Below the pieces are notes generated by a model that saw nothing but the letters and a program-made list of their open reading frames with translations, made no database searches and was not told the origin of the DNA. Shown one piece after another: positions 101 through 18,675 of a DNA stretch of 18,675 nt. Numbering within the stretch: the stretch's first letter is position 1; each line of letters begins with the position of its first letter. Source of the DNA: Oscillospiraceae bacterium (GTDB taxonomy: Bacteria > Bacillota_A > Clostridia > Oscillospirales > Oscillospiraceae); NCBI GenBank assembly GCA_902786615.1, contig CADADE010000034.1, forward strand, positions 1 through 18,675, given 5' to 3'. Position numbers and translations under genes: made by a program.

Positions 101-118
101 GTTTCCACGGGAGGTTTT

Positions 119-530: not shown

Positions 531-691
531 TGATAAAAATACGTGAGGAAAACACCACGGGAAAATGGCCCGAAACCATCCATAAATTAGGGCGGATCTC
601 TGAGGATAACCGACGACATTGCAGTGACTTTTTCGGACTTGTCACGGATACTGACCGACATCCGGAGACACGTCGACTGGAGGATTACGCC
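446..691 (+). other. Gap between HNH and small terminase
   Basis: These 246 bases hold the C-run repeats and, near the small terminase, two short inverted repeats: GTGAC 624-628 with GTCAC 641-645, and CGGAT 645-649 with ATCCG 660-664. The region is open in the same frame as both flanking genes. However, third codon positions in the 3' part (about 536-691) are only about half G or C by my count, unlike the GC-rich third positions of the neighbouring genes, and the residues look non-coding. I find no convincing -35/-10 promoter. The likeliest role is a terminase recognition and cos region. Confidence 0.45.
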
Positions 692-2796: not shown

Positions 2797-2815
2797 AAGG
2801 GGGAAGCGGCGCGCG

Positions 2816-5833: not shown

Positions 5834-5853
5834 TCTGTCTGAACAGAATCCCA

Positions 5854-5886
5854 GGGAGAAGGACGGGACTGACCCGGCCTTCTCCC
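5854..5886 (+). promoter_or_regulatory. Strong hairpin between capsid and connector genes
   Basis: GGGAGAAGG at 5854-5862 pairs perfectly with CCTTCTCCC at 5878-5886. Inside it CGGG (5864-5867) pairs with CCCG (5873-5876) around a 5-base loop, with a single A/G mismatch between the two stems. No T run follows, so a classical terminator is unlikely. A role in mRNA 3'-end stabilisation or partial attenuation after the highly expressed capsid gene is inferred. The nine-base direct repeat TCTGAACAG flanks it at 5838-5846 and 5890-5898. Confidence 0.6.
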
Positions 5887-5909
5887 CGATCTGAACAGGA
5901 GGGACGCCA

Positions 5910-6215
5910 ATGGAAACGACACTGACAACCACAGTCAAAACGGATCTCGGTATCCGGAACGACAAGCACGATGATCAGATCGATATGGCAATCAACGCAG
6001 CGAAAACCCAGATGGCCATGCGCGGCGTCACCGTGATCAACGAAACAGATCCCACGACCGTGACCTGCGTGGAGCTCTTCTGCCGGCACTGGTTCAACTT
6101 CCAGGGAGAGGCACAGCGTTTCTTCCAGGCTTTTGAGTTTTTGGCCAACGCCATGGCACTGAGCTCTGAGTACGGTACGGCCGCCGCAAAGAACGGGGAA
6201 GGCGGGGCGCCATGA
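5910..6215 (+). CDS. Head-tail connector / DNA packaging protein (HK97 gp6-like)
   Basis: The 101-residue, mostly helical protein opens with a short Thr-rich stretch and then the pattern KTDLGIRNDKHDDQIDMAI, typical of the Phage_connect_1 family (HK97 gp6, SPP1 gp15), which forms the ring under the portal. Its place directly after the coat protein agrees with this. AGGAGGG at 5897-5903 precedes the ATG. The stop overlaps the next start as ATGA. The C-terminus is a low-complexity Ala/Gly tail. Confidence 0.85.
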   Translation: METTLTTTVKTDLGIRNDKHDDQIDMAINAAKTQMAMRGVTVINETDPTTVTCVELFCRHWFNFQGEAQRFFQAFEFLANAMALSSEYGTAAAKNGEGGAP

Positions 6216-6538
6216 GCGGACTGCAGACCAACCGCACGCCATGGACCGATGAGCTGATCCTGCTGAGCTACGAGGAAACCACGGACAGAGAGGGCTATAC
6301 CAGCCGAACCGAGACCGAGACCGAGATTTGCTGCTGCTTCTCTGCCGGCGTCGCACGCGGGGAGTTCTACGAAGCGATGAAGGCTGGACTCCGGGCCAGC
6401 TGCTCGGCGGAGGTGTGGGAGGACGACTACGAGAACCAGACGCGCGCACGCGCCGACGGCAGCCTCTACAACGTCATACGTCACTATCCGACAGGGCGCG
6501 GCACGGTGATGCTGATCCTCGAGGAGGTGGTCCGATGA
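6212..6538 (+). CDS. Head-tail adaptor / head closure protein
   Basis: This 108-residue protein has the hallmark layout of Phage_H_T_join-type adaptors (SPP1 gp16/YqbH-like): a WTDELILLSYE opening strand, a DREGYTSRTE turn, and SAGVARGEFYEAMKAGL in the middle. Such proteins bind the connector ring and close the head before the tail docks. It is coupled by 4-base overlaps to both neighbours. The cluster of three cysteines (ICCCF, about residues 39-43) is unusual for the family but probably has no special role. Confidence 0.82.
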   Translation: MSGLQTNRTPWTDELILLSYEETTDREGYTSRTETETEICCCFSAGVARGEFYEAMKAGLRASCSAEVWEDDYENQTRARADGSLYNVIRHYPTGRGTVMLILEEVVR

Positions 6539-6885
6539 GCTGCGACGAGACCCTGCAGACAGCGCTCGAGACCCTGGGGCTACCGGTACACCCAAACGAG
6601 TATACGGGACCAGATCTGGAGTATCTGACCTGGTCCTATACCCAGATCCCTGTGGTGGCAGCGGACGATGCGCCACACGCGGCCAGGTATCTGATCACGG
6701 TGCGGTACTTCCTCCCATTCGACAAGAATCCAAACAGGATGAAACGCGCAATCAGCTGGGCACTGTTTCGTGCAGAATGCACTTGGCCATCGATCACTAA
6801 TATCACAGACCAGGAGGGCCAGGGCTACGCCCTCGAGTGCGAATGGACGGACGGAGGGGGCTACTATGGCTCAGATCAGTCTTAA
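6535..6885 (+). CDS. Probable tail terminator / head-tail joining protein
   Basis: The 116-residue protein has a short N-terminal helix (ETLQTALETLGLPV) followed by alternating beta strands (YLTWSYTQIP, ARYLITVRYFLP) and a helix (RMKRAISWALFRA). This matches the small alpha/beta tail-terminator fold seen at this locus in siphophages. Assignment rests on order (connector, adaptor, this gene, gp10-like, tail tube), not on a diagnostic motif. Start ATG 6535 overlaps the adaptor stop; a longer frame from 6328 lies inside the adaptor gene. It overlaps the next gene by 20 bases. Confidence 0.6.
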   Translation: MSCDETLQTALETLGLPVHPNEYTGPDLEYLTWSYTQIPVVAADDAPHAARYLITVRYFLPFDKNPNRMKRAISWALFRAECTWPSITNITDQEGQGYALECEWTDGGGYYGSDQS

Positions 6886-7300
6886 CGGCCTGGACGAGAT
6901 CGACAAGATGCTAGAGCACCTGAGCGAGGTCCCCTTTGACGTCATCTCTGACGCACTGAACGCCATGGCCGACGTGGCCGAGGCGCAGGTGCGCCAGACC
7001 GGGCAGTCCATGGGGGTCCGGGATCCGGAGAGCCGGGTGCACATTCTGGACAAAATAACCCACACCAAACCCAAGAAAAGCGACACCGGGGGATACTCCA
7101 ACGTCACCTTCTCCGGGACAAGGACCCGGGGGCGAACGAAAACAAGGAACGCGGAGATCGCGTTTATTAACGAATACGGCAAGCGGGGCCAAGCGCCCCG
7201 CCCGTTTATCAGGCAGGCCGCCGAGCAGGGCGCCGACACCATCGCCAAACCCGGCGAGGAGATCATCGGCGATTGGCTCGAGAAAATGGCCAGCAGCTGA
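6866..7300 (+). CDS. HK97 gp10-like tail completion protein
   Basis: The 144-residue protein ends with the recognisable gp10 family segment IAFINEYGKRGQAPRPFIRQA (HK97-gp10_like, PF04883) and begins with a helix around a LNGLDEIDKML pattern. Family members lie between head-tail joining genes and the tail tube gene and act in tail completion. The start at 6866 is preferred over an upstream in-frame codon at 6770 because GGAGGGGG (6853-6860) precedes it and the homologous fold begins there. It is followed after 14 bases by the tail tube gene. Confidence 0.9.
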   Translation: MAQISLNGLDEIDKMLEHLSEVPFDVISDALNAMADVAEAQVRQTGQSMGVRDPESRVHILDKITHTKPKKSDTGGYSNVTFSGTRTRGRTKTRNAEIAFINEYGKRGQAPRPFIRQAAEQGADTIAKPGEEIIGDWLEKMASS

Positions 7301-7314
7301 GAAAGGAGCTTTAT

Positions 7315-7917
7315 ATGCCTCAGTTTGGACTTCGCGGCGCAATGGTCGCCAAGTACAATAATAACAACGGCGCTGTGACTTACGACACCCCGATCGGTGC
7401 CGGCTGCGCCATCTCCGTCAACCTGGAGCTGACCTTCGCCGAGGCCAGGCTCTACGCCTGCGACAGCCTGGCAGAGTATCTGCGCGAGGTCACGGGCGGC
7501 AACATCACATTCGGCGCCAAACTCTTCCCGCAGGAAGCGCAGGTGCTGATGTTCGGCAACAAGACCAAAACCCGCAGCATTACTTATACCCCGCCCGGCG
7601 GCACGCAGACAACCGGCAACGTCACGAGCGTGGCCACCACAGCCAACGACGACCCGAGCTACGTGGGCTTTGCCTGCTATGCCCCCGACATGGTCAACGG
7701 CGAACGCAAGTATACCGCCTTTTTCGTACCGAAGGTCAAGTTCTCCACGCCCAGCACGGTGCTGAACACCAAGGGCGAATCGATCACCTTCCAGACGCCG
7801 CAGACCACGGGCGCTTTCCTGCAGTCTGACGCAAGCGACAGGGTGATCCAGGAGATCGCCATTTGCGACAGCGAGGAAGAGGCGCAGGCATGGATCGCCG
7901 CCGCATTTGCCGCATGA
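7315..7917 (+). CDS. Major tail (tube) protein
   Basis: This 200-residue, beta-rich protein has the features of Gram-positive siphophage tail tube subunits: an N-terminal region ending in LELTFAEARLYACDSLAEYL, a central strand set (SYVGFACYAPDMVNG, YTAFFVPKVKFSTP) and a final ESITFQTPQTTGAF strand pair. The tube stacks around the tape measure. GAAAGGAG at 7301-7308 sits 6 bases before the ATG at 7315; an earlier in-frame codon at 7273 lies inside the gp10-like gene. It directly precedes the tail chaperones, as expected. Confidence 0.88.
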   Translation: MPQFGLRGAMVAKYNNNNGAVTYDTPIGAGCAISVNLELTFAEARLYACDSLAEYLREVTGGNITFGAKLFPQEAQVLMFGNKTKTRSITYTPPGGTQTTGNVTSVATTANDDPSYVGFACYAPDMVNGERKYTAFFVPKVKFSTPSTVLNTKGESITFQTPQTTGAFLQSDASDRVIQEIAICDSEEEAQAWIAAAFAA

Positions 7918-7925
7918 GGTGAGCC

Positions 7926-8282
7926 ATGAGGAGTCTCAAGCTCGAAACCAAGAAAATTGATTTTGATGGCCGCGTCTGGGAGCTGCGGTGCAACATGTCC
8001 GTCCTGGACAGGCTCGAGCAGGCCCACGACGGGAACTTCACCGCGGTGATGACCCTGCCACCCTCAAAGGCGACGCCTGAGGTCCTGGCGGCTATGCTCA
8101 ACGATTACGCGGAGGATATGGGCTGGGATATCCAGTACACACCGAAGCAGATCTCCAAGATGGTCAGCTTCGCGGACATGAAAGAGATTGACGTCATCGG
8201 CATGCTCTACCGGGCGGTCATACCGGAGGATCCGCAGCCGGCTGCGGCAGCACCCACAGAAGAGGGCGAACCGGGAAACTGA
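7926..8282 (+). CDS. Tail assembly chaperone, gpG-like
   Basis: The 118-residue acidic, helical protein lies between the tail tube and tape measure genes, the fixed location of the tail assembly chaperone pair. The body (RSLKLETKKIDFDGRVWEL, then a helical NMSVLDRLEQAHDG) matches Gram-positive gpG-like proteins. The last 15 residues are a flexible A/P/E/G linker, typical just before a frameshift site. The stop codon TGA at 8280 directly follows the slippery heptamer GGGAAAC, so a fraction of ribosomes is expected to continue into the T domain at 8279-8533. Both forms coat the tape measure during tail assembly. Confidence 0.88.
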   Translation: MRSLKLETKKIDFDGRVWELRCNMSVLDRLEQAHDGNFTAVMTLPPSKATPEVLAAMLNDYAEDMGWDIQYTPKQISKMVSFADMKEIDVIGMLYRAVIPEDPQPAAAAPTEEGEPGN

Positions 8283-8321
8283 ACGACCGGGCGGAGTCTA
8301 ACCACATCGACTTCGCCCGGT
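8273..8321 (+). promoter_or_regulatory. Programmed -1 frameshift site: slippery heptamer plus stem-loop
   Basis: GGGAAAC at 8273-8279 is in the correct X XXY YYZ phase for the gpG frame (G GGA AAC) and is followed at once by TGA. After a 6-base spacer, ACCGGGCGGAGTC (8286-8298) pairs with GACTTCGCCCGGT (8309-8321): 13 bp with one G-U pair and a 10-base loop. An SD-like AGAGGG at 8261-8266 lies just upstream and could also stimulate. All elements are seen directly; use in vivo is inferred from the known G/GT frameshift in tailed phages. Confidence 0.9.
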
Positions 8322-8533
8322 ATCTCTCTATCTGGCTCTTTGAGTGCCACAGGGACGAGGCCGAGTTCTGGAAAACCATGAACCCGCGGCGTCTCTGGAG
8401 CCTTTTTGACGCATATTTTCGACCAAGACATCAACGGGAGATCTCCCAAACGCTCCAGACGGGCGAAAACCAACCAAAAAACGGCAAAATCGGTGAGATT
8501 TCCCTCGCAGCATACCTCACGGGAGGAGGCTAA
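8279..8533 (+). CDS. T domain of the gpG-T tail chaperone, made by -1 frameshift
   Basis: The -1 frame is open from the slippery site to a TAA at 8531-8533 and has no suitable start codon of its own. It encodes about 84 residues starting LNDRAESNHIDFARYL, with WLFECHRDEAEFW and KTMNPRRLWSLFDAYF, a pattern typical of the second chaperone gene before the tape measure in Gram-positive phages. Joined to gpG it gives a protein of about 202 residues. Known GT fusions recruit tail tube subunits to the gpG-coated tape measure. Its end runs into the GGGAGGAGG ribosome site of the tape measure gene. Confidence 0.88.
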   Translation: MNDRAESNHIDFARYLSIWLFECHRDEAEFWKTMNPRRLWSLFDAYFRPRHQREISQTLQTGENQPKNGKIGEISLAAYLTGGG

Positions 8534-8536
8534 CCC

Positions 8537-10321
8537 ATGGCGACAAGGACCGTCGGGCTCAAGATGGAGCTTGAAGGCGAAAAAGAATACAAAGAAAAAA
8601 TCGCCGAGATTAACCGGGAAAACAAAACGCTGGGCGAACAGATGAAGAAGCTCGCTGCCGAGTACCGCGGCAACGAAGACAGCATCGATGCCCTGGAGAA
8701 GAAGCAGGAGCTGCTCAACCGGAGCCTGCTGGAACACCAGGCCAAGGTCGCCGAGACTCAGAAGCAGCTGGAATCCTGGCGAGAGGCTCAGAAGCGAGTC
8801 AAAGAAGAGTTTGGCGCAGGGTCTGAACAATACAAAACTGTACAGAAGAAGGTTCAGGAGTATGAGGCCGCTTTGGCGAAGGCCCAGACGGCCGAAATCG
8901 AGACGAAGAACGCCATCGAGGACACCACTGAGGCCCTGGAGAACAGCAAGAAGCCCATCGAGGAGGTCGGCGAAGCCCTTGAGGAACTGGAGCCTGCCAC
9001 CGGAAAACTGGGCGATCAGGTCAAGGGCCTGAGCAGCAAACTGGGCATCAATCTACCGGAAGGAGCCACGAAGGCTCTCAACAGTATCAATGGCTTTTCA
9101 GCCGGAGCGGTGGCCAAAATGGGCGCGGTGGCTGCAGCAGCTGCCGCAGCCGTCAAAGTACTCAAGGCTCTCTACGACACCACGATTGAGGCAGCTGCCC
9201 GCGCGGACGATCTGCTGACCAAGAGCGTGATCACCGGAGTAAGCACCCAAACGCTGCAGCAATGGCAGTATGCCGCTGATTTCATTGACGTCAGCGTAGA
9301 CACCATGACAGGCAGCATGACCAAACTGACCAACAGCGCTTTCGACGCCGTCAACGGCAACGAAAAGCTCGCGGCGTCCTTTGCATCGCTTGGCGTCTCG
9401 GTGACAGACAGCTCCGGGCAGCTCCGCCCCGCCGAAGAGATCTTCTACGACGTGGTGGACGCGCTGGGTAAGGTGCAGAATCAGACGGAGCGCGATGCCA
9501 TCGCCATGGATATCATGGGCAGAAGTGCCCAGGAACTCAATCCCCTGATCGCTCAAGGAAGTGAAGCTCTGCGCGGTTTTTCAAAAGACGCAGAAGACGC
9601 TGGTTACGTGTTGGACGAGTATCAGATCGCCAAACTTGACGAGGTCAACGCCGCCTACCACCAGATGCAGCTGCAGATAGAAGCCACAAAGAACCAGCTG
9701 GCTGTGGCGTTCGCTCCTGTGGCCGAAGCGTCGTTAAAAGTGGTGACCGCCGCGGTGGGCGTCCTGACTAATGCCCTCGCTAAAATGAACGAGATGGCTG
9801 AGAAGGCTGCCAGGGCTTTCAAGAGCCTGCTGGGACAGCAGAGCGAAATGAAAAACTATGGCGGCCTTGGTTCCGACGTGTACGGCGCGACCTGGAAGGA
9901 CGATGTGCAGGCATACGTTACCATGGGCGGCACGGTCATTACCCCCGACATCATCGACCAGATTGATAAAACAACAGGCAAACCGAAGAACAATTTTTAT
10001 TTGGGCGAAATTCTCCCTGGTGAGTCTGCGTACTCATACGGGTATATGAGCGAAGCAGACATACAAAAGCTTTTGGCAGGTCGCAACGCCGCAGGGGATG
10101 CCAACTGGCGCGGCGGTCTGACATGGGTCGGCGAAAGCGGGCCTGAGCTGGTGGCCCTGCCCAGGGGCAGCCGGATCTGGAGCAACCAGGAGAGCCAGCA
10201 GATGGGCGCCACCGGCACCGACACCAGCCGGATCGAGGCGCTGCTGGAGCGCAACGTGCAGCTGCTGGAGGCGATCGGCGGCGAGTTTTCGGGCCTGCGG
10301 GTCAGGAGGAGGATGGCGTAA
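8537..10321 (+). CDS. Tail tape measure protein
   Basis: The 594-residue protein has a long charged coiled coil (about 15-150), an Ala-rich hydrophobic helix (about 189-212), then the TMP-type segment ADDLLTKSVITGVSTQTLQQ with a NPLIAQGSEAL region. Its C-terminus carries LTWVGESGPELVALPRGS (about 527-545), a motif common in Gram-positive phage tape measures. It sets tail length and helps DNA entry. At roughly 0.15 nm per residue this predicts a tail near 90 nm, short for a siphovirus. GGGAGGAGG at 8521-8529 gives a strong start. It ends immediately before the next ATG. No peptidase or lysozyme domain is evident. Confidence 0.95.
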   Translation: MATRTVGLKMELEGEKEYKEKIAEINRENKTLGEQMKKLAAEYRGNEDSIDALEKKQELLNRSLLEHQAKVAETQKQLESWREAQKRVKEEFGAGSEQYKTVQKKVQEYEAALAKAQTAEIETKNAIEDTTEALENSKKPIEEVGEALEELEPATGKLGDQVKGLSSKLGINLPEGATKALNSINGFSAGAVAKMGAVAAAAAAAVKVLKALYDTTIEAAARADDLLTKSVITGVSTQTLQQWQYAADFIDVSVDTMTGSMTKLTNSAFDAVNGNEKLAASFASLGVSVTDSSGQLRPAEEIFYDVVDALGKVQNQTERDAIAMDIMGRSAQELNPLIAQGSEALRGFSKDAEDAGYVLDEYQIAKLDEVNAAYHQMQLQIEATKNQLAVAFAPVAEASLKVVTAAVGVLTNALAKMNEMAEKAARAFKSLLGQQSEMKNYGGLGSDVYGATWKDDVQAYVTMGGTVITPDIIDQIDKTTGKPKNNFYLGEILPGESAYSYGYMSEADIQKLLAGRNAAGDANWRGGLTWVGESGPELVALPRGSRIWSNQESQQMGATGTDTSRIEALLERNVQLLEAIGGEFSGLRVRRRMA

Positions 10322-12658
10322 ATGTCAACAGTCACCAAAACCTACGCCTGCATCGGCAGCGCGATGATCGACTCCCAGAGCACAGGCACCAATTACCATG
10401 GGGCGTCATCCTATGATATCAAAGCAAACCCGAAAAACGCGCTCTGCCTCAAATTTGAGGCATTCCCGCAGAGCTTACGGAGAAACAAGCTGTACTCCGC
10501 CGTTGTAAAAGATTACTTTTCCGCGGTGATAGGCACGCCTACAAGTACTCAGATTTACAATACGGTAGTCAGCGTTTATTCGTGTGACAGCTTCAACGAG
10601 TCCTCCGTCACCTGGAACAGCAAGCCCGGGAACAATACGACCCTCGGAACCACAGCAATAGTATACACGCCTACCGGCGGCTGGAGTCCCTCATCGCCAT
10701 GCGCTTTCCCGGCCACCCACACGAAGGGAGACGACGTCATTGCGCAGCTGATCCTTCAGAAGTCCTGTGTCATGATCGAAGGGGTTCGGGAGCATTATTC
10801 AGGTGACCAGCTGTTCCTCAATACAAGAGCCGCAAGCAGCAAGCCAACGCTGACCGTCCAGTACGACAGCTCTGTCAAGGTGTCCTACCGGCCTGAGGGC
10901 AGGAGCCACACTTCCGGCTATCTCGACCGATTCATTGAAAACAAGTTTACGTGGCGCATCGTGAAAAACGATACGGCATACTGCCTATCTGACCCCATCC
11001 AGAAGTCTGCAAATTTCCAGTGGCGGAAAGCCGGAACCAGCACGTGGAACAGCGTGCCCGTCTCCGGGGCCACAAGTGAAGTGACGATCCCGGCCGAAAC
11101 CTTTGTCGGGAAGACGCTCGAGTGGAGGATCGTGGTCGTCGATGATCTGGGAGATACGCTGACATCCCCGACATACACCAACGACATGAGCGTCGGTGAG
11201 CTGACCGCGACGCCCTCATCCCCGATCGCAGGAGCGTTTGTGGACCCGCTGGCGCAGTCCCTGTTCATGTGGACGAATCAAAATGACCACGGAATCACGC
11301 GGCAGCAAAAAGCAGATCTTCAGTGGAGCACAAACGGCAGCTCCTGGAACACCCTCGGCACCGCGACCGGTGAATCCCAGAGCTTCCGCGCGCCCGCGAA
11401 CACATTCGGCACCGGGACATACTACTGGCGTGTACGGGCCTACAACCTTGACGGTGAGGCCGGGCCATGGAGCGAAGCTGCCCAATTCTCCACCGTCGAT
11501 TCCACCATGTACGCCGCGGCCGTGCATCCTGTCGGTGAGATCTGCGAGAACAACTCGCCGGTCACCTTCACCTGGACGTATTCGAGCGACACGGGCACGC
11601 GCCCAACCAGGTCGGACGTACAGTGGAGCAGAGACAGAGCCACCTGGACGGATCTGATCTCTGTCGACAGCAGCGTGATGATCTATATCGCCCCAGCCAA
11701 TACTTTCCCGTCCGGCACGGTCTACTGGAGAGTCCGGAACTACAACCACAACAACGTGGCCGGTCCATGGTCGGAAGTCGTGACCTTTATCAGCTATGGC
11801 GCGCCGCCGGTGCCTTCGGTGTCCGTCGATGAGGTCCCGTTCGCGACCATCACCTGGCAGAGCTCCGGGCAGGAGGCCTGGAGCGTCACGGTAGACGGGA
11901 CGACATACGGCCCGTACTTCGGAACAGACAAGAACTTCACCCTGGAGGAGCCGCTGGAAGACGGACAGCACACGGCCAGCGTGGCGATCCAGGGCGCCTA
12001 TGGGCTCTGGTCAAAAGCCGGGCAGATTGTGTTTTCTGTTGAAAACCAGCCGGGCGCGGATATCCGGCTCCGCGGGGTCTTTTACGGAGACGCCGCTCTG
12101 AGCTGGGAGTCGTCCGACGAGCTGAACGAGACTTACGTGTACCGCGACGGCAAAAGGATCGCGAAAACCGCGAACCTTGCCTATACGGACCGGCTCACGG
12201 TCGGGCTGCATACCTGGTACGTGCTGGAGAAGCTCCCGGGCGGCTACTACACGAAATCGAACGAGGTGACCGGCAAGCTGCACGTCTGCAAGCCGCTGAT
12301 CGCGAAATTCCCGGACGGGGCATGGGTGCAGCTTGTGCTCAGCGAAAACGCCACCAGATCGCAGACGACCGCCTACAGCCGCACCGTGAGCCTGCGCCAC
12401 ATCGTCGGCGCGGTCTATCCGGTTCTGGAGGTCTCAGCCTTTTGCGACGAATCGACGGCCTTCGATGCCGCCTTTGTGGACGACGCCGCGGCCAAGGCCT
12501 TCGAGCAGCTTCGCGGCGAGATCGTCATCCTGAAGACCTGCGACGGAATCGTCGTCGGCTGTCTGGCCCAACTCCAGCGCATCCGCAGACAGTTCTTCGT
12601 TGGGTACAGTTTCACCCTGCAGCGGATCCACTGGGAGGATTACATCGATGAAACGTGA
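10322..12658 (+). CDS. Multidomain distal tail protein: DNRLRE-like domain, Fn3/Ig-like repeats, baseplate-type C-terminus
   Basis: This 778-residue protein takes the place usual for the distal tail (Dit) protein after the tape measure. Residues 1 to about 182 resemble a DNRLRE-type beta domain (the SVYSCDSFNESSVTWNS segment). Residues about 186-288, 293-392 and 398-491 are three tandem Ig/Fn3-like repeats; the last two share YYWRVRAYN / VYWRVRNYN and AGPWSE, and a weaker unit follows to about 575. The last 140 residues, with EIVILKTCDGIVVGCL and GYSFTLQRI, look like a Dit/LysM-like ring domain. It probably links tail tube to hub and may bind host glycans. AGGAGGAGG at 10304-10312 precedes the start; the stop overlaps the next gene by 11 bases. 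Confidence 0.75.
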   Translation: MSTVTKTYACIGSAMIDSQSTGTNYHGASSYDIKANPKNALCLKFEAFPQSLRRNKLYSAVVKDYFSAVIGTPTSTQIYNTVVSVYSCDSFNESSVTWNSKPGNNTTLGTTAIVYTPTGGWSPSSPCAFPATHTKGDDVIAQLILQKSCVMIEGVREHYSGDQLFLNTRAASSKPTLTVQYDSSVKVSYRPEGRSHTSGYLDRFIENKFTWRIVKNDTAYCLSDPIQKSANFQWRKAGTSTWNSVPVSGATSEVTIPAETFVGKTLEWRIVVVDDLGDTLTSPTYTNDMSVGELTATPSSPIAGAFVDPLAQSLFMWTNQNDHGITRQQKADLQWSTNGSSWNTLGTATGESQSFRAPANTFGTGTYYWRVRAYNLDGEAGPWSEAAQFSTVDSTMYAAAVHPVGEICENNSPVTFTWTYSSDTGTRPTRSDVQWSRDRATWTDLISVDSSVMIYIAPANTFPSGTVYWRVRNYNHNNVAGPWSEVVTFISYGAPPVPSVSVDEVPFATITWQSSGQEAWSVTVDGTTYGPYFGTDKNFTLEEPLEDGQHTASVAIQGAYGLWSKAGQIVFSVENQPGADIRLRGVFYGDAALSWESSDELNETYVYRDGKRIAKTANLAYTDRLTVGLHTWYVLEKLPGGYYTKSNEVTGKLHVCKPLIAKFPDGAWVQLVLSENATRSQTTAYSRTVSLRHIVGAVYPVLEVSAFCDESTAFDAAFVDDAAAKAFEQLRGEIVILKTCDGIVVGCLAQLQRIRRQFFVGYSFTLQRIHWEDYIDET

Positions 12659-13691
12659 GATAGAGATCCAGTACATCATCCGCCGCAACGGTGCGTACTT
12701 CGGCAAGCTCTACGCAATCGGGAATCCTCAGCTCCGCTGTGACGACAGCACGGCGCTCAAGATGTCGCTGTCCGGGGACTTCGCCCCGAACGAGCTTGCG
12801 GACTGGCTGCGCGACGAGATCCAGCCTGTGCTGATCATCGACGGTGTCGAACACCCGCTGGCTGTTCTCATGCCGGCGACCGTGATCCCGACCAAAACGG
12901 CCACGACCGCGTCGCTGCACATTGAGGCCTATGACCGCTGCTGGCGCGTGCAGGACGTCACGACAGAGGACATCCTCTATCTGGCAGCGGGCGCAAACTA
13001 CGTACAGGAGATCCAGCGGCTGCTGGTCTCCTGCGGGATCGACACAGTGCTGGCCACGCCGTCGGATGCGGTTTTCTCGGAGGCCAGGGAGGACTGGGAC
13101 ATCGGGACCAGCTATCTGGACATCGTCAATCAGCTGCTGGGGGAGATCAACTACAACCCCCTGTGGTTTAATGCGCAGGGCGCGGCCGTGCTGGAGCCGG
13201 TGTCGGTGCCCAGCGTCTCCCGACTCAAGCACGTGCTCGATGAGAGCAACGTCGAGTCCATGCTCCTGCCGTCGATCAGCCGGGAGACGGATATCTACCG
13301 CGCGCCCAACGTCTTCCTGTGCGTTTGCTCGAACCCCGACAAGAGCGGCCCGCTGGTCTCAAAGGCCGAAAACACAAACCCGCAAAGCCCGCTGTCGATC
13401 GGCCGCCGCGGGCGGCGGATCATGAAAAAGATCCAGGTGGCCAACATCGAAAGTCAGGCAGCGCTTGACGCCTATGCCGCGCGGATCTGCAACGAGAGCA
13501 TGATCGGCGGCGAGACCATCCGCGTGCAGACGGGGCTTCTCCCCGGCTTCGGCATGGCGGACGTCACCGCACTCCGCTTTGAGGGCGTCGACGAGCTGTG
13601 CGTCGAGAAAGCCTGGACGATGTCACTGGGCGTTGGTGGGACCATGCAGCACACACTTCAGAGGGTGGTGATCAACATTGACCAGCAATAA
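12648..13691 (+). CDS. Tail hub / tail-associated baseplate protein (Tal-like)
   Basis: The 347-residue protein begins KREIEIQYIIRRNGAYFGKL and contains a DEIQPVLIIDGVEHPLAVLMP strand block and an RVQTGLLPGFGMADVTAL strand near the C-terminus. These are features of siphophage hub proteins related to T4 gp27/Mu gp44. The hub closes the tail tip and opens on adsorption. No lytic domain is appended, unlike long Tal proteins. ATG 12648 is preferred to 12600 because GGGAGG (12633-12638) precedes it. Family assignment is by pattern and gene order after the distal tail protein. Confidence 0.72.
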   Translation: MKREIEIQYIIRRNGAYFGKLYAIGNPQLRCDDSTALKMSLSGDFAPNELADWLRDEIQPVLIIDGVEHPLAVLMPATVIPTKTATTASLHIEAYDRCWRVQDVTTEDILYLAAGANYVQEIQRLLVSCGIDTVLATPSDAVFSEAREDWDIGTSYLDIVNQLLGEINYNPLWFNAQGAAVLEPVSVPSVSRLKHVLDESNVESMLLPSISRETDIYRAPNVFLCVCSNPDKSGPLVSKAENTNPQSPLSIGRRGRRIMKKIQVANIESQAALDAYAARICNESMIGGETIRVQTGLLPGFGMADVTALRFEGVDELCVEKAWTMSLGVGGTMQHTLQRVVINIDQQ

Positions 13692-13911
13692 GGAAGATCT
13701 GGAGATTGACGTCAAGGGCGAGCCGGCGCAGCTGCTCCTGGCCACCGTGGGGAGCGCAAGCTCCGCCGGCGTAACGCTGATCTTTGACGGGACGGATACG
13801 CCGACACAAAAACGATACAAGCGCGTGACCAGTCAAGGACTCTCGTCTAACAACCGCGTGCTCGTGGCAAAGATTTCCGGCACCTTTGTGGTAATCGGGA
13901 AGTTAAGCTGA
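13678..13911 (+). CDS. Small baseplate-type protein, probable OB-fold-like (TTG start)
   Basis: The 77-residue protein is almost entirely beta strands: GVTLIFDGTDTPTQKRYK, then NNRVLVAKISGTFVVIGKL. Short proteins of this pattern follow the hub gene in many Clostridia phages and look like a stand-alone OB-type barrel, as found in hub spikes. That fold is my inference. The only early start is TTG at 13678, overlapping the hub gene by 14 bases, with a GAGGGTGG at 13661-13668 upstream. Low initiation strength would fit a protein needed in few copies. Confidence 0.65.
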   Translation: MTSNKEDLEIDVKGEPAQLLLATVGSASSAGVTLIFDGTDTPTQKRYKRVTSQGLSSNNRVLVAKISGTFVVIGKLS

Positions 13912-13924
13912 GGAGGAGGACAAC

Positions 13925-14272
13925 ATGGCAGCCATTCACAGAGCCGGGACGTTCCCGGTCACAATCAAAACGCCGAAGCCACCGGCGGATTATTCCATCA
14001 TCCGCGTGAGCTTTGCCCAGGGGCAGAGGCTCATCGTCGAGAAGACGAACGGCGACGAGGGCTTCACCGTGGGCGAAGACCGGGTGGAGGTGGTGCTGAC
14101 ACAGGCAGAGACGCTGGCGTTTGCGCCCACTGCGGGCTCGCCCATGGGCGCGGTCACAGGCCCCATGGCCTACATGCAGATCCGGTGCTATCAGAGCGCC
14201 ACGGACGCCCCCGCCTCCGCCGTCTGGCCCATCCCGGTCTATGACAGCCTCAACCAGGAGGTGATGGGCTGA
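13925..14272 (+). CDS. Small tail/baseplate protein of unknown function
   Basis: The 115-residue protein is beta-rich, with motifs FPVTIKTPKPPADYSIIRVSF, VVLTQAETLAF and a GPMAYMQIRCYQ segment ending in AVWPIPVYDSLNQEV. I do not recognise a named family. Similar small proteins lie just before the fibre gene in Firmicutes siphophages and may adapt fibre to baseplate. AGGAGGAGGA at 13911-13920 is a very strong ribosome site. The stop TGA overlaps the ATG of the fibre gene (TGATG), so synthesis is coupled to the fibre. Confidence 0.75.
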   Translation: MAAIHRAGTFPVTIKTPKPPADYSIIRVSFAQGQRLIVEKTNGDEGFTVGEDRVEVVLTQAETLAFAPTAGSPMGAVTGPMAYMQIRCYQSATDAPASAVWPIPVYDSLNQEVMG

Positions 14273-15582
14273 TGGCCGACGTTTTCGAGCTCCAAAGCTG
14301 CTGCAACGAGTTCCAGTTCACGGATCCCGAGGACAACTTCGAGAGCTGGAACGGTTTGCGCGGCCCCGCCGGACCTGCTGGCCCTCCGGGCCCTGCGGGC
14401 TCACCCGGCACAAGCGTTGAGCTGCGCGGCCCCGTGGCGAGCACCGAGCAGCTTCCGGCCACCGCTCCTTCCGGGGAGCTCTGGCTTGTGGGTACTTCGT
14501 CCCCATTCGACGGCTGGTTCTACAACGGCACGAGCTGGCAGAACGCCGGCCAGATCGCTGTCGGCCCTGTCGGCCCTGCCGGGCCTGCAGGAGATCCTGG
14601 CAGCGATGGGACGACCTTCATGCCATCGGTGAGCTCCGAGGGCATGCTCAGCTGGACAAACGACGGCGGCAAACCCAACCCCGACCCGGTAAACATCCGA
14701 GGCCCGAAGGGAGAACCGGGCGACGCAAGCATGACGATCCTGTCCTACGGCAATAGTACATGGGCGGACTTCATTGCTGCTTATAATGCAAAAAGCATTG
14801 TGTACTGCCGCGCATCCATTACCGCAGCGAATCCCGGCGCTGGTTCTCAGGTGCGTATGGCTGTCATGGCCTACGTCAATCATCCAACTGTCCCTACCAG
14901 TGTTGATTTTGTGTATTATTATCCCGCCATTCACAGCGATTCTCAGCAAGGGGATCAGCTTTTTGTTTACACCCTCTCGCAAACAAATGGTTGGTCATAC
15001 GTGGTCAAAAACACGTTCTCCCGCGTCGTTGCCGGGGAAAACATGACATCAAGCTACGCCAACGGAACGCTGACGCTCAACGCAACGGGCGGCGGTACAG
15101 CAGACGCACTCCCGCTGGCTGGCGGCACAATGGCTGGCAATATCGACATGAACGGCAACAAGGTAACCAAATTGCCTACGCCAACCAACTATCAAGATGC
15201 TGCCAATAAGGATTACGTTGACAAGAGATATCTCAAGCCGCCCAGCGGCATACCGAAATCTGATCTTGCGAGCGATGTGCAAGCGGCTCTTGTACCGGCT
15301 GGCGGCTCCGCCGGACAAATCCCGGTCAAGGCCAGCGCCACGGACTATGATTTGAAATGGGCCACGGTAGCGCTACACATTTCCGTCGCCTCTTTTTCCA
15401 GCTTCCCGCAGACGATCAGCAACAGCGCTATCACTGCAGGTATGCGGGTGGTCAATTGCGTTTGGGGTACACCGTCGGAAATCACCGGAGATGTAACGTG
15501 GACAACCGCAGACGGGAGCTTAACGCTCTCAGGTTCGATATCGGGCAGCACGACCGCTGAAATTGATCTGATTTTGTTTTAA
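14272..15582 (+). CDS. Collagen-like tail fibre protein
   Basis: The 436-residue fibre has three Gly-X-Y tracts: about 31-48 (GPAGPAGPPGPAGSPGTS), 98-113 and 144-151 (GPKGEPGD), which should form short triple helices. Then come a less repetitive beta region (about 152-270), a fibre repeat GGTMAGNIDMNGNKVTKLPTP with DAANKDYVD (about 284-316), a linker GIPKSDLASDVQAAL, and a beta C-terminal domain with GMRVVNCVWGTP. These motifs are typical of trimeric receptor-binding fibres. The middle coding section (about 14740-15050) is visibly AT-richer than its surroundings, hinting at module exchange. The start overlaps the previous stop. Confidence 0.92.
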   Translation: MADVFELQSCCNEFQFTDPEDNFESWNGLRGPAGPAGPPGPAGSPGTSVELRGPVASTEQLPATAPSGELWLVGTSSPFDGWFYNGTSWQNAGQIAVGPVGPAGPAGDPGSDGTTFMPSVSSEGMLSWTNDGGKPNPDPVNIRGPKGEPGDASMTILSYGNSTWADFIAAYNAKSIVYCRASITAANPGAGSQVRMAVMAYVNHPTVPTSVDFVYYYPAIHSDSQQGDQLFVYTLSQTNGWSYVVKNTFSRVVAGENMTSSYANGTLTLNATGGGTADALPLAGGTMAGNIDMNGNKVTKLPTPTNYQDAANKDYVDKRYLKPPSGIPKSDLASDVQAALVPAGGSAGQIPVKASATDYDLKWATVALHISVASFSSFPQTISNSAITAGMRVVNCVWGTPSEITGDVTWTTADGSLTLSGSISGSTTAEIDLILF

Positions 15583-15595
15583 GGAGGGGTAAACC

Positions 15596-15838
15596 ATGGG
15601 CAATTATTTCTACACGACAATCGAGAATCAGGTGCGTGAGGACGGCAGCAGAGGCTTGCTGTACGACCATTTCGAGAATTATGATGCAGCGCTTGCCAAG
15701 CTCTACACCATTCTGGCGGCGGCAGCAACGTCCGGCCTGCCGTACCATAGCGGCCACATCATGCGCTCTGATGGCATCCTTACGGACGGCAGAGTGTTCG
15801 ACCGACGCATGGCCCCCGCCCCGGAACAGGAGGAGTAA
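15596..15838 (+). CDS. Small conserved-looking phage protein after the fibre
   Basis: The 80-residue protein (MGNYFYTTIENQ, a helical DHFENYDAALAKLYTILAAAA, then YHSGHIMRSDGILTDGRVFD) has no domain I can name. Its position directly after a fibre gene, with AAGGAGGGG at 15581-15589 as ribosome site, suggests a fibre partner or assembly chaperone, which is inference. The 3' end carries the AGGAGGAG ribosome site of the next small gene, so the two are likely translated together. It has no membrane segment or signal peptide. Confidence 0.75.
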   Translation: MGNYFYTTIENQVREDGSRGLLYDHFENYDAALAKLYTILAAAATSGLPYHSGHIMRSDGILTDGRVFDRRMAPAPEQEE

Positions 15839-15841
15839 GCA

Positions 15842-16012
15842 ATGAGTAAGATCTTTATGGCGCGTAGCGCCACACACACACACACACACACGGGCGGCGG
15901 CCCGATTCTGCCGAAGGGAGGACGCGCTGGGTTAAGCTGTTGTCCTCCGCCTCCGGGGATCGGAGGTCTGAGGCGTAAATCCTCTGATCTTCGTGATTGG
16001 AGGGCTGAGTGA
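15842..16012 (+). CDS. 56-residue gene with a CA-repeat-encoded Thr-His tract
   Basis: An unrecognised 56-residue protein begins MSKIFMARSA, then THTHTHT encoded by a (CA)10 run, then GGGPILPKGGRAG, a CCPPPPG stretch and a charged end RKSSDLRDWRAE. It is supported as a real gene by a perfect AGGAGGAG at 15828-15835, 6 bases before the ATG, and by a TGA stop that overlaps the ATG of the next gene (TGATG at 16010-16014). A change of one CA unit would shift the frame to a stop at 15933 (gain) or 15976 (loss). The function is unknown. It could be a phase-variable translational leader for the following gene or a small fibre-associated protein. Confidence 0.6.
   Translation: MSKIFMARSATHTHTHTGGGPILPKGGRAGLSCCPPPPGIGGLRRKSSDLRDWRAE
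15871..15890 (+). repeat. (CA)10 dinucleotide microsatellite in coding sequence
   Basis: Ten uninterrupted CA units sit within codons 10-17 of the 56-residue gene. Dinucleotide tracts of this length are uncommon in bacterial or phage coding DNA and are prone to slipped-strand mispairing. Gain or loss of a unit would truncate the protein. The repeat is seen directly; variability is inferred. Confidence 0.95.
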
Positions 16013-16323
16013 TGGCGACGGGAAAAATACTTTCGGAACACGGGGAAGTGAAAAATATCAACGCATCGGTAACAGGCACGATAACAGCAGGAGAGAATGC
16101 ATGGAAGTATGTACCTGTTACGATCCCGGATGGTTATCGCATGATTGCTGTTAATTCACTCAAATTTTCGGGAACTGACGCGAATTATATTGTTTTGCGC
16201 GGATTTGTAGTCGACAATTCAAATAGCAGAGTAGAGCTATACTTTAAGAATACGACTGCGCAAACGACTGTTAATTATACAGCAACGGTTTGGATAACAT
16301 GCGTACGATCTAACTTGTTTTAA
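16012..16323 (+). CDS. Small beta-rich tail-tip protein, paralogue 1 of 3 (MATG family)
   Basis: The 103-residue protein starts MATGKILSEHGEVK and continues with strands VTGTITAGENAWKYVPVTI and VNYTATVWITCVRSNL. This is like the small head domains found at the end of fibre loci in gut Clostridia phages; I infer a fibre-tip or receptor-binding role. It shares layout with the next gene (TITAGEN against AVSAGQS; CVRSNL against YVRNDL). GGAGGG at 15999-16004 gives a good ribosome site, and the start overlaps the preceding stop. A hand count over 16021-16320 gives about 41% GC, far below the capsid region, suggesting recent acquisition. Confidence 0.7.
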   Translation: MATGKILSEHGEVKNINASVTGTITAGENAWKYVPVTIPDGYRMIAVNSLKFSGTDANYIVLRGFVVDNSNSRVELYFKNTTAQTTVNYTATVWITCVRSNLF

Positions 16324-16352
16324 CTCCTATCACTCAGCCAAGCCGAGAAGGT

Positions 16353-16670
16353 ATGGCAACAGGTACAATTAAATCACTAACTGGTGCAATAAAAGTATAT
16401 GATCTCATGTTCACTGACGTTGCAGTGAGTGCAGGGCAGAGCGTTTCTCAACAGTACTCATTTCCGGTTATAAGCGGGTGGAGCCGGGCCTTCGTTTCAG
16501 TTCACGGTGTCAGCGGCTCCGGTACTGGTCGGGCGATCATAACGATTCATGGTACGCCATCCAGCGGATACGTTTGGATTGGTTCTACCGATACTGCTGT
16601 TACTGCGAAATTTACAATCAGGTGCTTATATGTTCGAAACGATCTATACGAGAATGCTACACCAACGTGA
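16353..16670 (+). CDS. Small beta-rich tail-tip protein, paralogue 2 of 3 (MATG family)
   Basis: The 105-residue protein begins MATGTIKSLTGAIKVYD and has strands VAVSAGQSVSQQYSFPVI, SRAFVSVHGVSG and TAKFTIRCLYVRNDLY, matching paralogue 1 in order and C-terminal signature. It lies 29 bases after that gene. Its only Shine-Dalgarno-like stretch, GAGAAGG, ends almost against the ATG, so direct initiation should be poor; reinitiation or silence is possible. Its coding sequence is AT-richer than the head genes. A receptor-binding head domain is the likeliest role, without direct proof. Confidence 0.65.
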   Translation: MATGTIKSLTGAIKVYDLMFTDVAVSAGQSVSQQYSFPVISGWSRAFVSVHGVSGSGTGRAIITIHGTPSSGYVWIGSTDTAVTAKFTIRCLYVRNDLYENATPT

Positions 16671-16686
16671 TACCCAGCCATGAAAA

Positions 16687-17046
16687 ATGGCAACAGGAAC
16701 AATCAAGAAAGGAATCTCAATGCCGAGCCAGTATGTGTTTGCCGCATGGCTCTCACTCGGATTTTGGAGATCGGACAATTCTGGTGTTATCCACTTAGTT
16801 TTCGATGCTCCATTCTTGGAGCCGGGAACGCAACTATCAGTAGCCGAGAGCACTGTCTCGATAAATGTTTTTCAGCCGGGATCATCTGCTGCCGCAACGC
16901 CAATCCTCAACACGAGCATTCTCGGTGCGGCTTGTCAAGTCCCCGGAAAAATTGACGTAACGATCCCGGCTGACGAGTCAGTAACCGCAAACAGAATTTG
17001 TTACTATTCGCTTCGCACGCAACTGACCATTAACGTGGGGAACTGA
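16687..17046 (+). CDS. Small beta-rich tail-tip protein, paralogue 3 of 3 (MATG family)
   Basis: The 119-residue protein begins MATGTIKKGISMPSQYVF and ends RICYYSLRTQLTINVGN, keeping the start and end signatures of the two preceding genes while the middle has diverged strongly. The gene starts 16 bases after paralogue 2 and has no visible Shine-Dalgarno. The first bases ATGGCAACAGG are identical to those of paralogue 2, so the 5' end is the conserved part. An overlapping 91-residue frame from 16680 is rejected as a shadow. The role, like its siblings, is inferred to be a fibre tip or alternative adhesin. Confidence 0.62.
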   Translation: MATGTIKKGISMPSQYVFAAWLSLGFWRSDNSGVIHLVFDAPFLEPGTQLSVAESTVSINVFQPGSSAAATPILNTSILGAACQVPGKIDVTIPADESVTANRICYYSLRTQLTINVGN

Positions 17047-17047
17047 T

Positions 17048-17095
17048 ATGGACGACGATGAAAAAGAGTTCAGCGGCCTTTTGGAGGATGAATGA
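17048..17095 (+). CDS. 15-codon coupling ORF before the endolysin
   Basis: The ATG at 17048 opens a very short acidic ORF, MDDDEKEFSGLLEDE, closed by a TGA that overlaps the endolysin start. A GTGGGGAA at 17035-17042 could serve as ribosome site. Its own sequence carries the GGAGG (17083-17087) used by the endolysin. It may be a translational leader that times lysin synthesis, or a chance ORF. No family is known to me. Confidence 0.35.
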   Translation: MDDDEKEFSGLLEDE

Positions 17096-18108
17096 TGCAG
17101 CACGATTTTGATTTCAAGGGCGCGGCGGAAATGCCCCGCCCCTACGATCCCGCCAACTACGGGCTCCCGATCTGGCGGGATGAGAATCACCAGCCGCCGC
17201 AGACAGAAAAGCAGGAAGCGGAAACTGCGCCCGAGGCCGTGGAGTCGGACGCGCCGGGTGTGATCAGCCGAGCAATGACGTGGGCGCTCGACACTGCCGA
17301 AGACAACAGCCATGGCTACTCCCAAGCCAACCGCTGGGGGCCGGACTATGACTGCTCCAGCTTTGTGATCTCGGCCTGGGAGCAGGCGGGCGTCCCGGTC
17401 AAGGCGGCCGGCGCGACGTACACGGGGAACATGTACGACGTCTTCACCCGCTGCGGCTTCCAAGATGTGACCGCCGCCTGCGATCTCGCCACCGGCGCGG
17501 GGCTGCGGTACGGCGATGTGCTGCACAGTCATAACGACGGCAAGCAGCACGCCGCGTTATACGCCGGACACGGTCAGATCGTACATGCCCGCAGCAGCGA
17601 AGGCAACAGCATCCAGGGCGACCAGAGCGGCAACGAGATCAGAGTGCAGCCATACTATGGCCCGTGGGACTGCGTCCTCCGCTACACCGGATTTGAAGGC
17701 ATTGTCGATTATGGCGTCCGCGGTGAGCCGGGAGAGCCGGGAATTGTTGAGGAACAACGGGCAAAGCGCTCCATCCTCAAAAAGGGGATGATCGGCGAGG
17801 ACGTGCGCGTGCTGCAGGAAAAGCTGGTCAAGCTCGGATACGACACCGGAGGCGTAGAAGGGAAGTATGGCACGAAGACCTTTCTTGCCGTGGCCAAGCT
17901 CCAGGAAGAGCATAAGCTCACGCCGGTGGACGGAGAGGCAGGGCCGGTTACAATGGCCTTGATCGACAGCCTGCTGGACGAGCTGCCCGCCGTCCATGAG
18001 CCCGCGCCAGACATCCGCGACACCCTCGCCGCCCTGGCGGAGTACCTGCAGACCGACGAGTTTCTGCAAGGATTTAATAATTACATAGAGAGGAGCAAAG
18101 AGAAATGA
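17092..18108 (+). CDS. Endolysin: NlpC/P60-type peptidase with PG_binding_1 domain
   Basis: The 338-residue enzyme cleaves peptidoglycan peptides. Residues about 57-200 form an NlpC/P60-type cysteine peptidase with DCSSF (probable nucleophile C88), H153 in KQHAALYAGH and H165 in QIVHA. Residues about 229-293 form a peptidoglycan-binding domain (LKKGMIGEDVRVLQEKL, GYDTGGVEGKYGTKT). A linker with GEPGEPG joins them. The first 55 residues are an acidic, Pro-rich extension with no signal peptide or membrane segment, so release depends on the holin. The start may equally be ATG 17095, which overlaps the preceding TGA and is better spaced from GGAGG. It overlaps the holin gene by 4 bases. Confidence 0.9.
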   Translation: MMQHDFDFKGAAEMPRPYDPANYGLPIWRDENHQPPQTEKQEAETAPEAVESDAPGVISRAMTWALDTAEDNSHGYSQANRWGPDYDCSSFVISAWEQAGVPVKAAGATYTGNMYDVFTRCGFQDVTAACDLATGAGLRYGDVLHSHNDGKQHAALYAGHGQIVHARSSEGNSIQGDQSGNEIRVQPYYGPWDCVLRYTGFEGIVDYGVRGEPGEPGIVEEQRAKRSILKKGMIGEDVRVLQEKLVKLGYDTGGVEGKYGTKTFLAVAKLQEEHKLTPVDGEAGPVTMALIDSLLDELPAVHEPAPDIRDTLAALAEYLQTDEFLQGFNNYIERSKEK

Positions 18109-18605
18109 ATGCACCGGAAAGAGCAACCGAAATCAAGGCCGCGATTGCGGCAATCCTCGCGTTTTTGACAGCCCTTTGGGGCTGGGTCGGCTGGGCCGTC
18201 TGGATTTGGATAGTCTGCATGCTGATCGACTATATCAGCGGCAGCGCCGCGGCGAAAAAGGACAACGAGTGGGCGAGCTCCGTCGCCCGCGCGGGCCTCT
18301 GGCACAAGCTGGGCGAAGTGTTCGCGGTTTTGGTGGCAGCCCTTTGCGACATCGCGCTGCATGTACTGATAAACGGCGCCGGCGTGCAGATTGGCGTCGA
18401 GCTGCCGGTCATGGTCACGCCCGTGGTGCTGTTATGGTACATTATTACTGAGCTCGGCAGTATTGCTGAGAACGCAGGGAAGCTGGGCGCTCCGGTACCC
18501 AAATGGCTCATGAGATCTTTGGCAGCATACAAAGACAAAATCGACAGCGACCACGGCGAACACGAGGACAAGCCTCCCGATGAAGAGAAGGCAGAAAACG
18601 AATAA
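18105..18605 (+). CDS. Phage holin, phage_holin_4_1 (TcdE/Cph1) type
   Basis: The 166-residue membrane protein has a hydrophobic block at about 11-43 rich in Trp, a second segment at about 69-90 and a third at about 99-118. The signature stretches WIVCMLIDYISGSAAAKK and LWYIITELGSIAENAG are typical of phage_holin_4_1 proteins (PF05105). The tail (about 145-166) is highly charged, as in other holins. It forms the lesion that lets the endolysin reach the wall. It follows the lysin, reversing the more common holin-lysin order, and ends the cluster just before a terminator. Confidence 0.93.
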   Translation: MNAPERATEIKAAIAAILAFLTALWGWVGWAVWIWIVCMLIDYISGSAAAKKDNEWASSVARAGLWHKLGEVFAVLVAALCDIALHVLINGAGVQIGVELPVMVTPVVLLWYIITELGSIAENAGKLGAPVPKWLMRSLAAYKDKIDSDHGEHEDKPPDEEKAENE

Positions 18606-18614
18606 AAGAAAGAT

Positions 18615-18642
18615 AAAGCCACGGCCTGACGCCGTGGCTTTT
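18615..18642 (+). terminator. Intrinsic terminator after the holin gene
   Basis: AAAGCCACGGC at 18615-18625 pairs perfectly with GCCGTGGCTTT at 18631-18641 around a 5-base loop, followed by a short T-rich tail (TTTTGTTG). It lies 9 bases after the holin stop and closes the late transcription unit. The paired A run upstream means it could also work on the opposite strand. Confidence 0.92.
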
Positions 18643-18675
18643 GTTGAAAACTTATCTGTTTTTGAAATCAGGGCC

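Follow-up and report, generated by a model that had tools for sequence, protein, structure and literature searches.

Why should a phage late operon carry an uninterrupted dinucleotide tract inside a tiny leader gene, just ahead of a run of small tail-tip-like genes? The question is raised by an 18,675-nucleotide (nt) stretch of DNA from an Oscillospiraceae bacterium (contig CADADE010000034.1, positions 1 to 18,675 of the forward strand; the window in what follows), in which a 56-codon leader open reading frame (ORF) with a CA tract precedes three small ORFs, all on the plus strand. A first-pass annotation had proposed that the tract switches the first of these, the gene at 16012, ON or OFF. 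Our analysis supports a slippage-type tract in a leader ORF that is coupled to tail-tip-like genes of a phage late operon, but argues against a switch of the 16012 gene alone: the cassette is likely a three-position phase-variable selector of tail-fibre tips. In the mechanism that we propose, and consider reasonably probable, the reading frame serves as a three-way address. The tract length modulo 3 would pick the stop at which leader translation ends, and cognate long-range helices would join the Shine-Dalgarno sequence of that stop to a distant gene start, the two together forming a split ribosome-binding site.

Three reading frames and three stop sites

The leader ORF (15842-16012) has an ATG start with GGAGGAG upstream, and in its present frame it ends at the last of three stop sites, termed S1, S2 and S3. 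It holds the proposed dial, an uninterrupted 21-nt tract of (CA)10 plus C at 15871-15891. The window contains a single copy of the 20-nt (CA)10 string, and none of 200 dinucleotide shuffles contains one; the string is beyond chance in the window. As in a contingency locus, the uninterrupted short-unit tract shifts the frame of an ORF. A word-based protein search for homologues of the 56-residue product found none; because of this, and because the repeat unit and hence the peptide varies among relatives, a leader peptide is the best reading of the product.

The full-length frame runs to the S3 stop, TGA 16010-16012, which overlaps the ATG at 16012 (TGATG), and the first stops of the alternative frames are TAA 15933 and TAA 15976, all as annotated. 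The frame positions imply that translation would stop at 15933 with one unit more and at 15976 with one unit fewer. The first of these sites, S1 (or M1; 15926-15935), consists of GCTGGGT (15926-15932) and TAA (15933-15935); the second, S2 (or M2; 15970-15978), consists of GAGGCG and then TAA (15976-15978). Both are conserved and are complementary to the leaders of the small ORFs at 16687 (S1) and 16353 (S2). Since the frames that the annotation regarded as broken end at such conserved, Shine-Dalgarno-bearing stops, a one-unit change most likely passes translation to another tip gene.

The arrangement recurs in a set of 22 loci (the window and 21 relatives; 198,247 nt in total), of which 17 have three small ORFs behind the leader. 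In 19 of the 22 cassettes the first post-tract stops of the three frames are S1, S2 and S3, the exceptions being L003, L004 and L012. Two shuffle tests address the frames. In the loose one, the earliest stop must come at least 30 nt past the repeat start and the latest of the three first stops no more than 12 nt from the ORF1 start; 21 of 22 natural regions pass it, as do 1108 of 11,000 shuffled regions. In the sharper one, the Shine-Dalgarno sequences of S1 and S2 (SD1 and SD2) and ORF1 are fixed in place and the remaining leader letters are shuffled, and each of three places must receive the first stop of exactly one frame: the interval 6-17 nt behind SD1, the same interval behind SD2, and a position no more than 9 nt from the ORF1 start. 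Of the 17 natural leaders, 15 satisfy this demand (all but L004 and L012), as do 230 of 34,000 shuffles. The joint change modulo 3 of both first-stop spacings in L307 and L318 was dropped as evidence: it is inevitable for the first stops of three frames, and the motif-anchored shuffle test replaced it.

The stop codons at the sites may be TAA, TAG or TGA; what is conserved is therefore a stop and its frame, not one sequence. Read from the leader ATG, the loci are found in all three states (S1 in 3, S2 in 11 and S3 in 8 of the 22), the window being in S3. S3 and the ORF1 start are no more than 8 nt apart in all 22 loci, the stop/start proximity expected of termination-reinitiation, and no proximity of this kind is seen for ORF2 and ORF3.

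Split ribosome sites and long-range complementarity

The three small ORFs differ in their ribosome sites. In the window, ORF1 (16012-16323), a small tail-tip-like protein gene, would be the one presently chosen, in state S3. ORF2 (16353-16670), assigned to state S2, has a weak Shine-Dalgarno sequence (pairing energy with the anti-Shine-Dalgarno (anti-SD) sequence, -3.0 kcal/mol), and ORF3 (16687-17046), assigned to state S1, has none (-0.1 kcal/mol). Across the 17 three-ORF loci, AAAGGAGG-like sequences stand before S1 and S2 and end 9-15 nt ahead of the stop. Their anti-SD energies (S1, -9.0 to -17.3; S2, -11.0 to -17.2 kcal/mol) stand with that of ORF1 (-9.1 to -13.0), the values for ORF2 and ORF3 being -0.9 to -7.0 and +0.7 to -6.4. 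Start codons 3-14 nt past SD1 or SD2 amount to a single ATG, in L001, which opens 20 codons. As judged from sequence, S1 and S2 thus have strong Shine-Dalgarno sequences without a usable start, and ORF2 and ORF3 have starts with a weak Shine-Dalgarno sequence or none. The small ORFs do not overlap (gaps of 17-46 nt and 15-30 nt), and the starts of ORF2 and ORF3 lie 303-513 and 621-867 nt past the S1 stop.

These features bear on the annotated ON/OFF switch, in which the tract would only make or break the overlap coupling of ORF1, and ORF2 and ORF3 would be translated independently. The TGATG overlap and the good Shine-Dalgarno sequence of ORF1 suit such a switch, but it leaves unexplained the Shine-Dalgarno sequences at S1 and S2 and their weakness or absence at ORF2 and ORF3, as well as the three-frame arrangement and the matched complementarity described below. 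We consider it unlikely.

Each of the three Shine-Dalgarno sequences is at least partly enclosed in a candidate local hairpin. In hp1 (15917-15948), SD1 (GGAGG, 15917-15921) lies in the 5' arm (15917-15924), which pairs with 15941-15948 and leaves the S1 stop in the loop. In hp2 (15949-15967; arms 15949-15955 and 15961-15967), SD2 (GGAGG, 15962-15966) lies in the 3' arm, as does the ORF1 Shine-Dalgarno sequence (15999-16003) in hp3 (15980-16004). The Shine-Dalgarno hairpins hp1 and hp2 show covariation: over the 17 loci, own arms of hp1 score above swapped ones, with none of 10,000 permutations reaching the observed value, and for hp2 one of 10,000 does so. The ORF1 Shine-Dalgarno sequence is predicted to be partly or wholly paired when a short upstream stretch is folded. 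A search of the cassette region (15800-16750) against Rfam 15 returned no family match up to an E-value of 5. Transcription attenuation, in which leader translation by frame would control a terminator, has a parallel in pil1 of Streptococcus gallolyticus, where a repeat in a leader-peptide gene is described as controlling a terminator (PMC3894217). It is extremely unlikely here: a consensus scan of 15500-17150 finds no terminator-like site, against a shuffle mean of 1.7, and a T-run between S1 and ORF1 is present in one of 17 loci.

The distant starts are linked to the leader by complementary arms. In the window, GCTGGGT of S1 matches ACCCAGC in the ORF3 leader (16672-16678); over the 17 loci this complementarity (S1:L3) measures 6-12 base pairs (bp). 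The stretch between S2 and the ORF1 start matches the ORF2 leader over 8-13 bp in 16 of 17 loci (helix B). The window helix B has 13 bp, including one G-U: its 5' arm GGCTGAGTGATGG (16003-16015) spans the ORF1 start and the S3 stop (TGA 16010-16012), and its partner is CTATCACTCAGCC in the ORF2 leader (16327-16339). In 10 of 17 loci the start codon of ORF1 lies within helix B. A third, shorter match, helix A, joins S2 to the ORF2 leader and reads GGCGT/ACGCC, GGCTT/AAGCC, GGCGG/CCGCC or GGCAC/GTGCC according to the locus; 14 of 17 loci have a standard fourth pair and 12 a standard fifth, where the changes are compensated. Own partners outscore swapped ones in each case (22.5 versus 19.2 for S1:L3, 13.4 versus 11.9 for helix A and 24.8 versus 18.4 for helix B); in 10,000 partner permutations no value as high occurred for any of the three. 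When other stretches of the region are scored as partners of the ORF3 leader, S1 comes first in 12 of 17 loci and never falls outside the top 2.4%. For the ORF2 leader, helix B likewise comes first in 12 of 17, and in the remaining loci its rank extends up to 29% (L001).

The core GCACTGG/CCAGTGC of S1:L3 says little by itself because it hardly varies. Compensatory changes are seen in L037, which has GGCTCTGTAA/TTACAGAGCC in place of this core, and at pair 9, which among 16 loci is T-A in 6, G-C in 4, A-T in 1, G-U in 1 and not standard in 4; the window is left out of this per-pair count as its arms are shorter (GCTGGGT/ACCCAGC, each by two nt, likewise in L003). Helix B occurs in several kinds, namely GGCTGAGTGAT-type, GCTGACTGAT, GTGGCTAG, GTGGCTGTTA and TATGAGTGTTAG, each with a matching partner, the last being the compensated TATGAGTGTTAG/CTAACACTCATA of L005.

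Long-range pairing would also fit programmed bypassing, in which ribosomes would leave S1 or S2, skip the paired loop to land at ORF3 or ORF2, and thereby join the leader peptide to a tip; take-off beside a structured stop codon that has a Shine-Dalgarno sequence upstream of it resembles phage T4 gene 60. The start codons bear the mark of initiation instead (ATG in 8 and GTG in 9 of 17 for ORF1, ATG in 14 and GTG in 3 for ORF2), though ORF3 has ATG in all 17, and the leader peptides hold different repeat units by locus. Bypassing is decidedly unlikely. The same arms could, in principle, serve DNA inversion as short inverted repeats, or be sites of cassette exchange between phages, as S1 with the ORF3 leader and the arms of helix B are inverted repeats at the DNA level that flank ORFs, and ORF bodies vary by locus with leaders alike. 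Exchange at leaders may also occur: L011 keeps S1 beside a single ORF with an ORF3-type leader. A scan of the opposite strand for tagged ORFs within 1300 nt of S1 gave, in 22 loci, one candidate of 84 codons (L316). This ORF, behind S1, opens with a tag-like MAQSVL, which may be chance. All three ORFs lie on the leader strand in the 17 three-ORF loci, although these were chosen for that, and neither inversion nor exchange accounts for the frames; we regard this explanation as very improbable.

In the selector that we favour, the tract length modulo 3 would set the reading frame of ribosomes leaving the tract, and each frame would be open to one site: S1 (TAA 15933), S2 (TAA 15976) or S3 (TGA 16010, at the ORF1 start). 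The arriving ribosome would open the local hairpin that at least partly holds the strong Shine-Dalgarno sequence of its site. A stop at S3 would reinitiate ORF1 by ordinary overlap coupling, helix B having been melted en route. A ribosome that stops at S2 would leave helix B intact, so that the ORF2 start is placed next to the S2 Shine-Dalgarno sequence; in this state the ORF1 start would remain paired in many loci. A stop at S1 would open hp1 and free its loop to pair with the ORF3 leader, whereupon the ORF3 start would meet the S1 Shine-Dalgarno sequence. One of three alternative tips would thus be made, and gain or loss of a unit would rotate the choice: in the window, one more CA would select S1 and ORF3, one fewer S2 and ORF2, and the present state would read ORF1. 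The model supposes that the tract slips in vivo, that reinitiation is guided by RNA, that the three products are mutually exclusive and that they would bind receptors.

In a ribosome-free global fold, at least one helix-B nucleotide pairs with the ORF2 leader at a predicted probability of at least 0.5 in 15 of 17 loci, and in the window some nucleotide of 16003-16015 does so at 1.00.

Several observations weigh against the selector. The first is the predicted fold: the pairing probability of S1:L3 exceeds 0.3 in 5 of 17 loci only and has a maximum of 0.00 in the window, and of all the results this one speaks most strongly against a standing S1:L3 structure. The pairing is not predicted in the window because hp1 holds S1 and competes for it, and we read hp1 as a trap that would be opened by a ribosome stopping at S1. 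The complementarity itself has gaps. Beyond its core S1:L3 is patchy: of 16 loci, 9 have a standard pair at position 10, 7 at position 11, 7 at position 12 and 3 at position 1. Helix A is uncompensated in L308 and L318, and in the window its match to the ORF2 leader amounts to 3 bp, GGC/GCC. L001 has a helix B of 6 bp, and the 8-bp helix B match of L012 is located elsewhere and is probably chance. The frames have exceptions as well: L003 has a single ORF; L004 has an extra TAA at L004:3283, 24 nt before S1 and in the S1 frame, which would make ORF3 unreachable or signal a different state; and in L012 two frames halt at S1 and none at S2. A third small ORF was not seen in L034, whose S1 lacks the CACTGG core, nor in L044, which retains it; the second was not seen in L319, and the contig of L043 ends in ORF2. 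Finally, the permutation tests leave the relatedness among loci in, the motif letters fixed by the search patterns for S1 and S2 are no independent evidence of conservation, and tract lengths in assembled contigs may be in error.

Tract variation, candidate tip proteins and gene context

Related loci in viral and bacterial contigs were reached through the sequence and alignment of a conserved 80-amino-acid (80-aa) gene that directly precedes the cassette in the window (15596-15838; 569 homologues), and two motif scans added more. Of the 22 loci, 9 came via the 80-aa gene, 8 via a pattern in which some positions of S1 and of S2 are fixed, and 5 via an S2 pattern. The motif of the 80-aa gene was found in 26 distinct loci, window included; 10 of them carry the cassette or a remnant (the window, L001, L003, L004, L005, L006, L010, L011, L012 and L025), and L015 is a doubtful remnant. 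About 10 of the other 15 have, by eye, an ORF start within about 10 nt of the 80-aa stop. L011, with its single remaining ORF, and L015 were omitted from the 22-locus test, and L003, L034, L043, L044 and L319 from the 17-locus tests (fewer than three ORFs seen, or contig end). The seven bacterial records are all metagenome-assembled genomes, including ones from goat cecum, roe deer and red deer and from the RUG series, which we take to be rumen; among the seven only L025, a RUG record, holds the cassette.

The tract is kept across relatives, just 3' of the 80-aa gene or of another gene that replaces it, and its length and even its repeat unit vary, in keeping with the annotation's view of a slippage tract. 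The 22 loci have CA, CT, GA, GT, poly-G or poly-C at this spot, or weak TA/CT remnants: long dinucleotide tracts in L006 ((CT)13), L035 ((GA)10), L308 (TC, 19 nt) and L320 (TG, 25 nt); GT tracts of 16-26 nt in L313, L314 and L318; short ones in L319 (CA, 13 nt), L001 (TA, 9 nt) and L003 (only 8 nt of CT); G5 to G9 in L004, L005, L010-L012, L034, L037, L043, L044, L307 and L316; and C9 in L025. A tract census finds 21 of 22 cassettes above its cut-off at this place and 7 further tracts elsewhere in the 22 loci, 5 of them plain 6-nt runs of G or C. Close relatives differ in length: L313 and L314, with similar leaders, have 17 and 26 nt of GT, and L010, L011 and L012 have G8, G5 and G6 behind near-identical 80-aa genes, where the tract flanks differ too. 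A fixed place with a changing unit suggests selection for slippage and is hard to explain otherwise.

Other tracts were noted on these contigs. L314 has 17 nt of GA elsewhere (13777-13793). L020 has a G7 at 3429 in the stretch behind the 80-aa gene, at a locus without small ORFs. In L028, (AC)8 at 3780-3795 lies within a small ORF of which one frame is a 110-aa protein and the others stop within 56 nt; it looks like a plain ON/OFF tract in the equivalent gene position. In L320 (minus strand) a second tract, G10, stands at the end of ORF3 (plus strand 800-809; oriented 1405). One of its frames meets an immediate TAA, one the ATGA start of a fourth small ORF and one, 348 nt on, the TGATGG start of a fifth. 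It may be a second three-way dial in series, in which case some phages stack two dials.

Simpler forms exist as well, many relatives having one ORF that starts at or near the stop of the 80-aa gene. In L032 (84-119) and L039 (minus strand), the ACGCC partner of S2 comes immediately after the S2 motif, together with an ATGGC start and with no tract, as if the S2 coupling element could exist alone as a stand-alone coupling hairpin.

The three small ORFs within a locus have a matched N-terminal tag (0 of 10,000 permutations), and their bodies are not matched. Those of the window have no match to a fibre C-terminal family in Pfam or PHROG at an E-value of 0.01. Ten ORFs of relatives were tested: ORF2 of L316, a three-ORF locus, is a PF21882 protein (Gp53-like_C, E-value 1.6e-10), the single ORFs of L024 and L032 match PF21882 and that of L015 matches PF21939 (Gp10_C), and 7 of the 10 have PHROG tail matches, some of them weak.

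The surroundings are a portion of the late region of a tailed, gut-type phage, comprising a collagen-repeat fibre gene, the 80-aa gene, the leader ORF with tract, the three small ORFs and genes for an NlpC/P60 endolysin and a holin. The collagen-repeat tail-fibre gene (14272-15582), likely the fibre shaft, matches PHROG tail fiber 3904 (E-value 1.3e-15), with Pfam Collagen under its cut-off. The 80-aa product has no Pfam or PHROG match at an E-value of 0.01 and is predicted by AF2 to form a small alpha/beta fold (pLDDT 93.5).

Known counterparts and the biology of tail tips

The slippage switches known to us act on a single gene, either switching it on and off or adjusting its level. Structure-guided placement of ribosomes, or the approximation of a Shine-Dalgarno sequence to a start, is exemplified by bypassing in T4 gene 60 and by the hairpin-shortened ribosome site of T4 gene 38; the pairing proposed here is instead long-range, three-way and selected by frame. 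Phase-variable receptor-binding proteins with poly-G tracts are described in Campylobacter phages (Sorensen et al. 2021, Cell Rep 35:109214, cited in PMC10579305, PMC10877375). As phage slippage tracts that vary the expression of receptor-binding proteins, these are, from what those sources describe, the closest known system. The Campylobacter tracts reportedly lie inside the genes, each gene being ON or OFF; here a separate 56-codon leader holds the tract, the unit is CA and variable in relatives, and three stops appear to select among three genes.

In pil1 of S. gallolyticus, repeats likewise lie in a leader-peptide gene and the point at which translation ends decides downstream expression (PMC3894217). 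The output described there is transcription past a terminator, whereas the present locus has no terminator-like site and a choice of three ORFs is proposed. The S3/ORF1 overlap belongs to the known kind of termination-reinitiation coupling at TGATG and ATGA overlaps (PMC6728339, PMC10666635); ORF2 and ORF3 differ in that they are distant and joined to S2 and S1 by complementary arms. Variation of phage tail tips is also described through invertible tail-fibre segments (Mu, P1) and through reverse transcriptase (PMC10579305). Those systems use a recombinase or a reverse transcriptase, and our model needs neither. A search of open-licence PMC papers found, in the text that it covered, no description of a tract that chooses among three genes, which is no proof of absence.

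If the selector operates as proposed, all three reading frames of the leader would be used, and each slippage event would swap one tail tip for another with no dead end. It would then provide a recombinase-free variation of phage receptor-binding protein, and a case in which a ribosome is handed over after termination, across hundreds of nucleotides, through RNA pairing.
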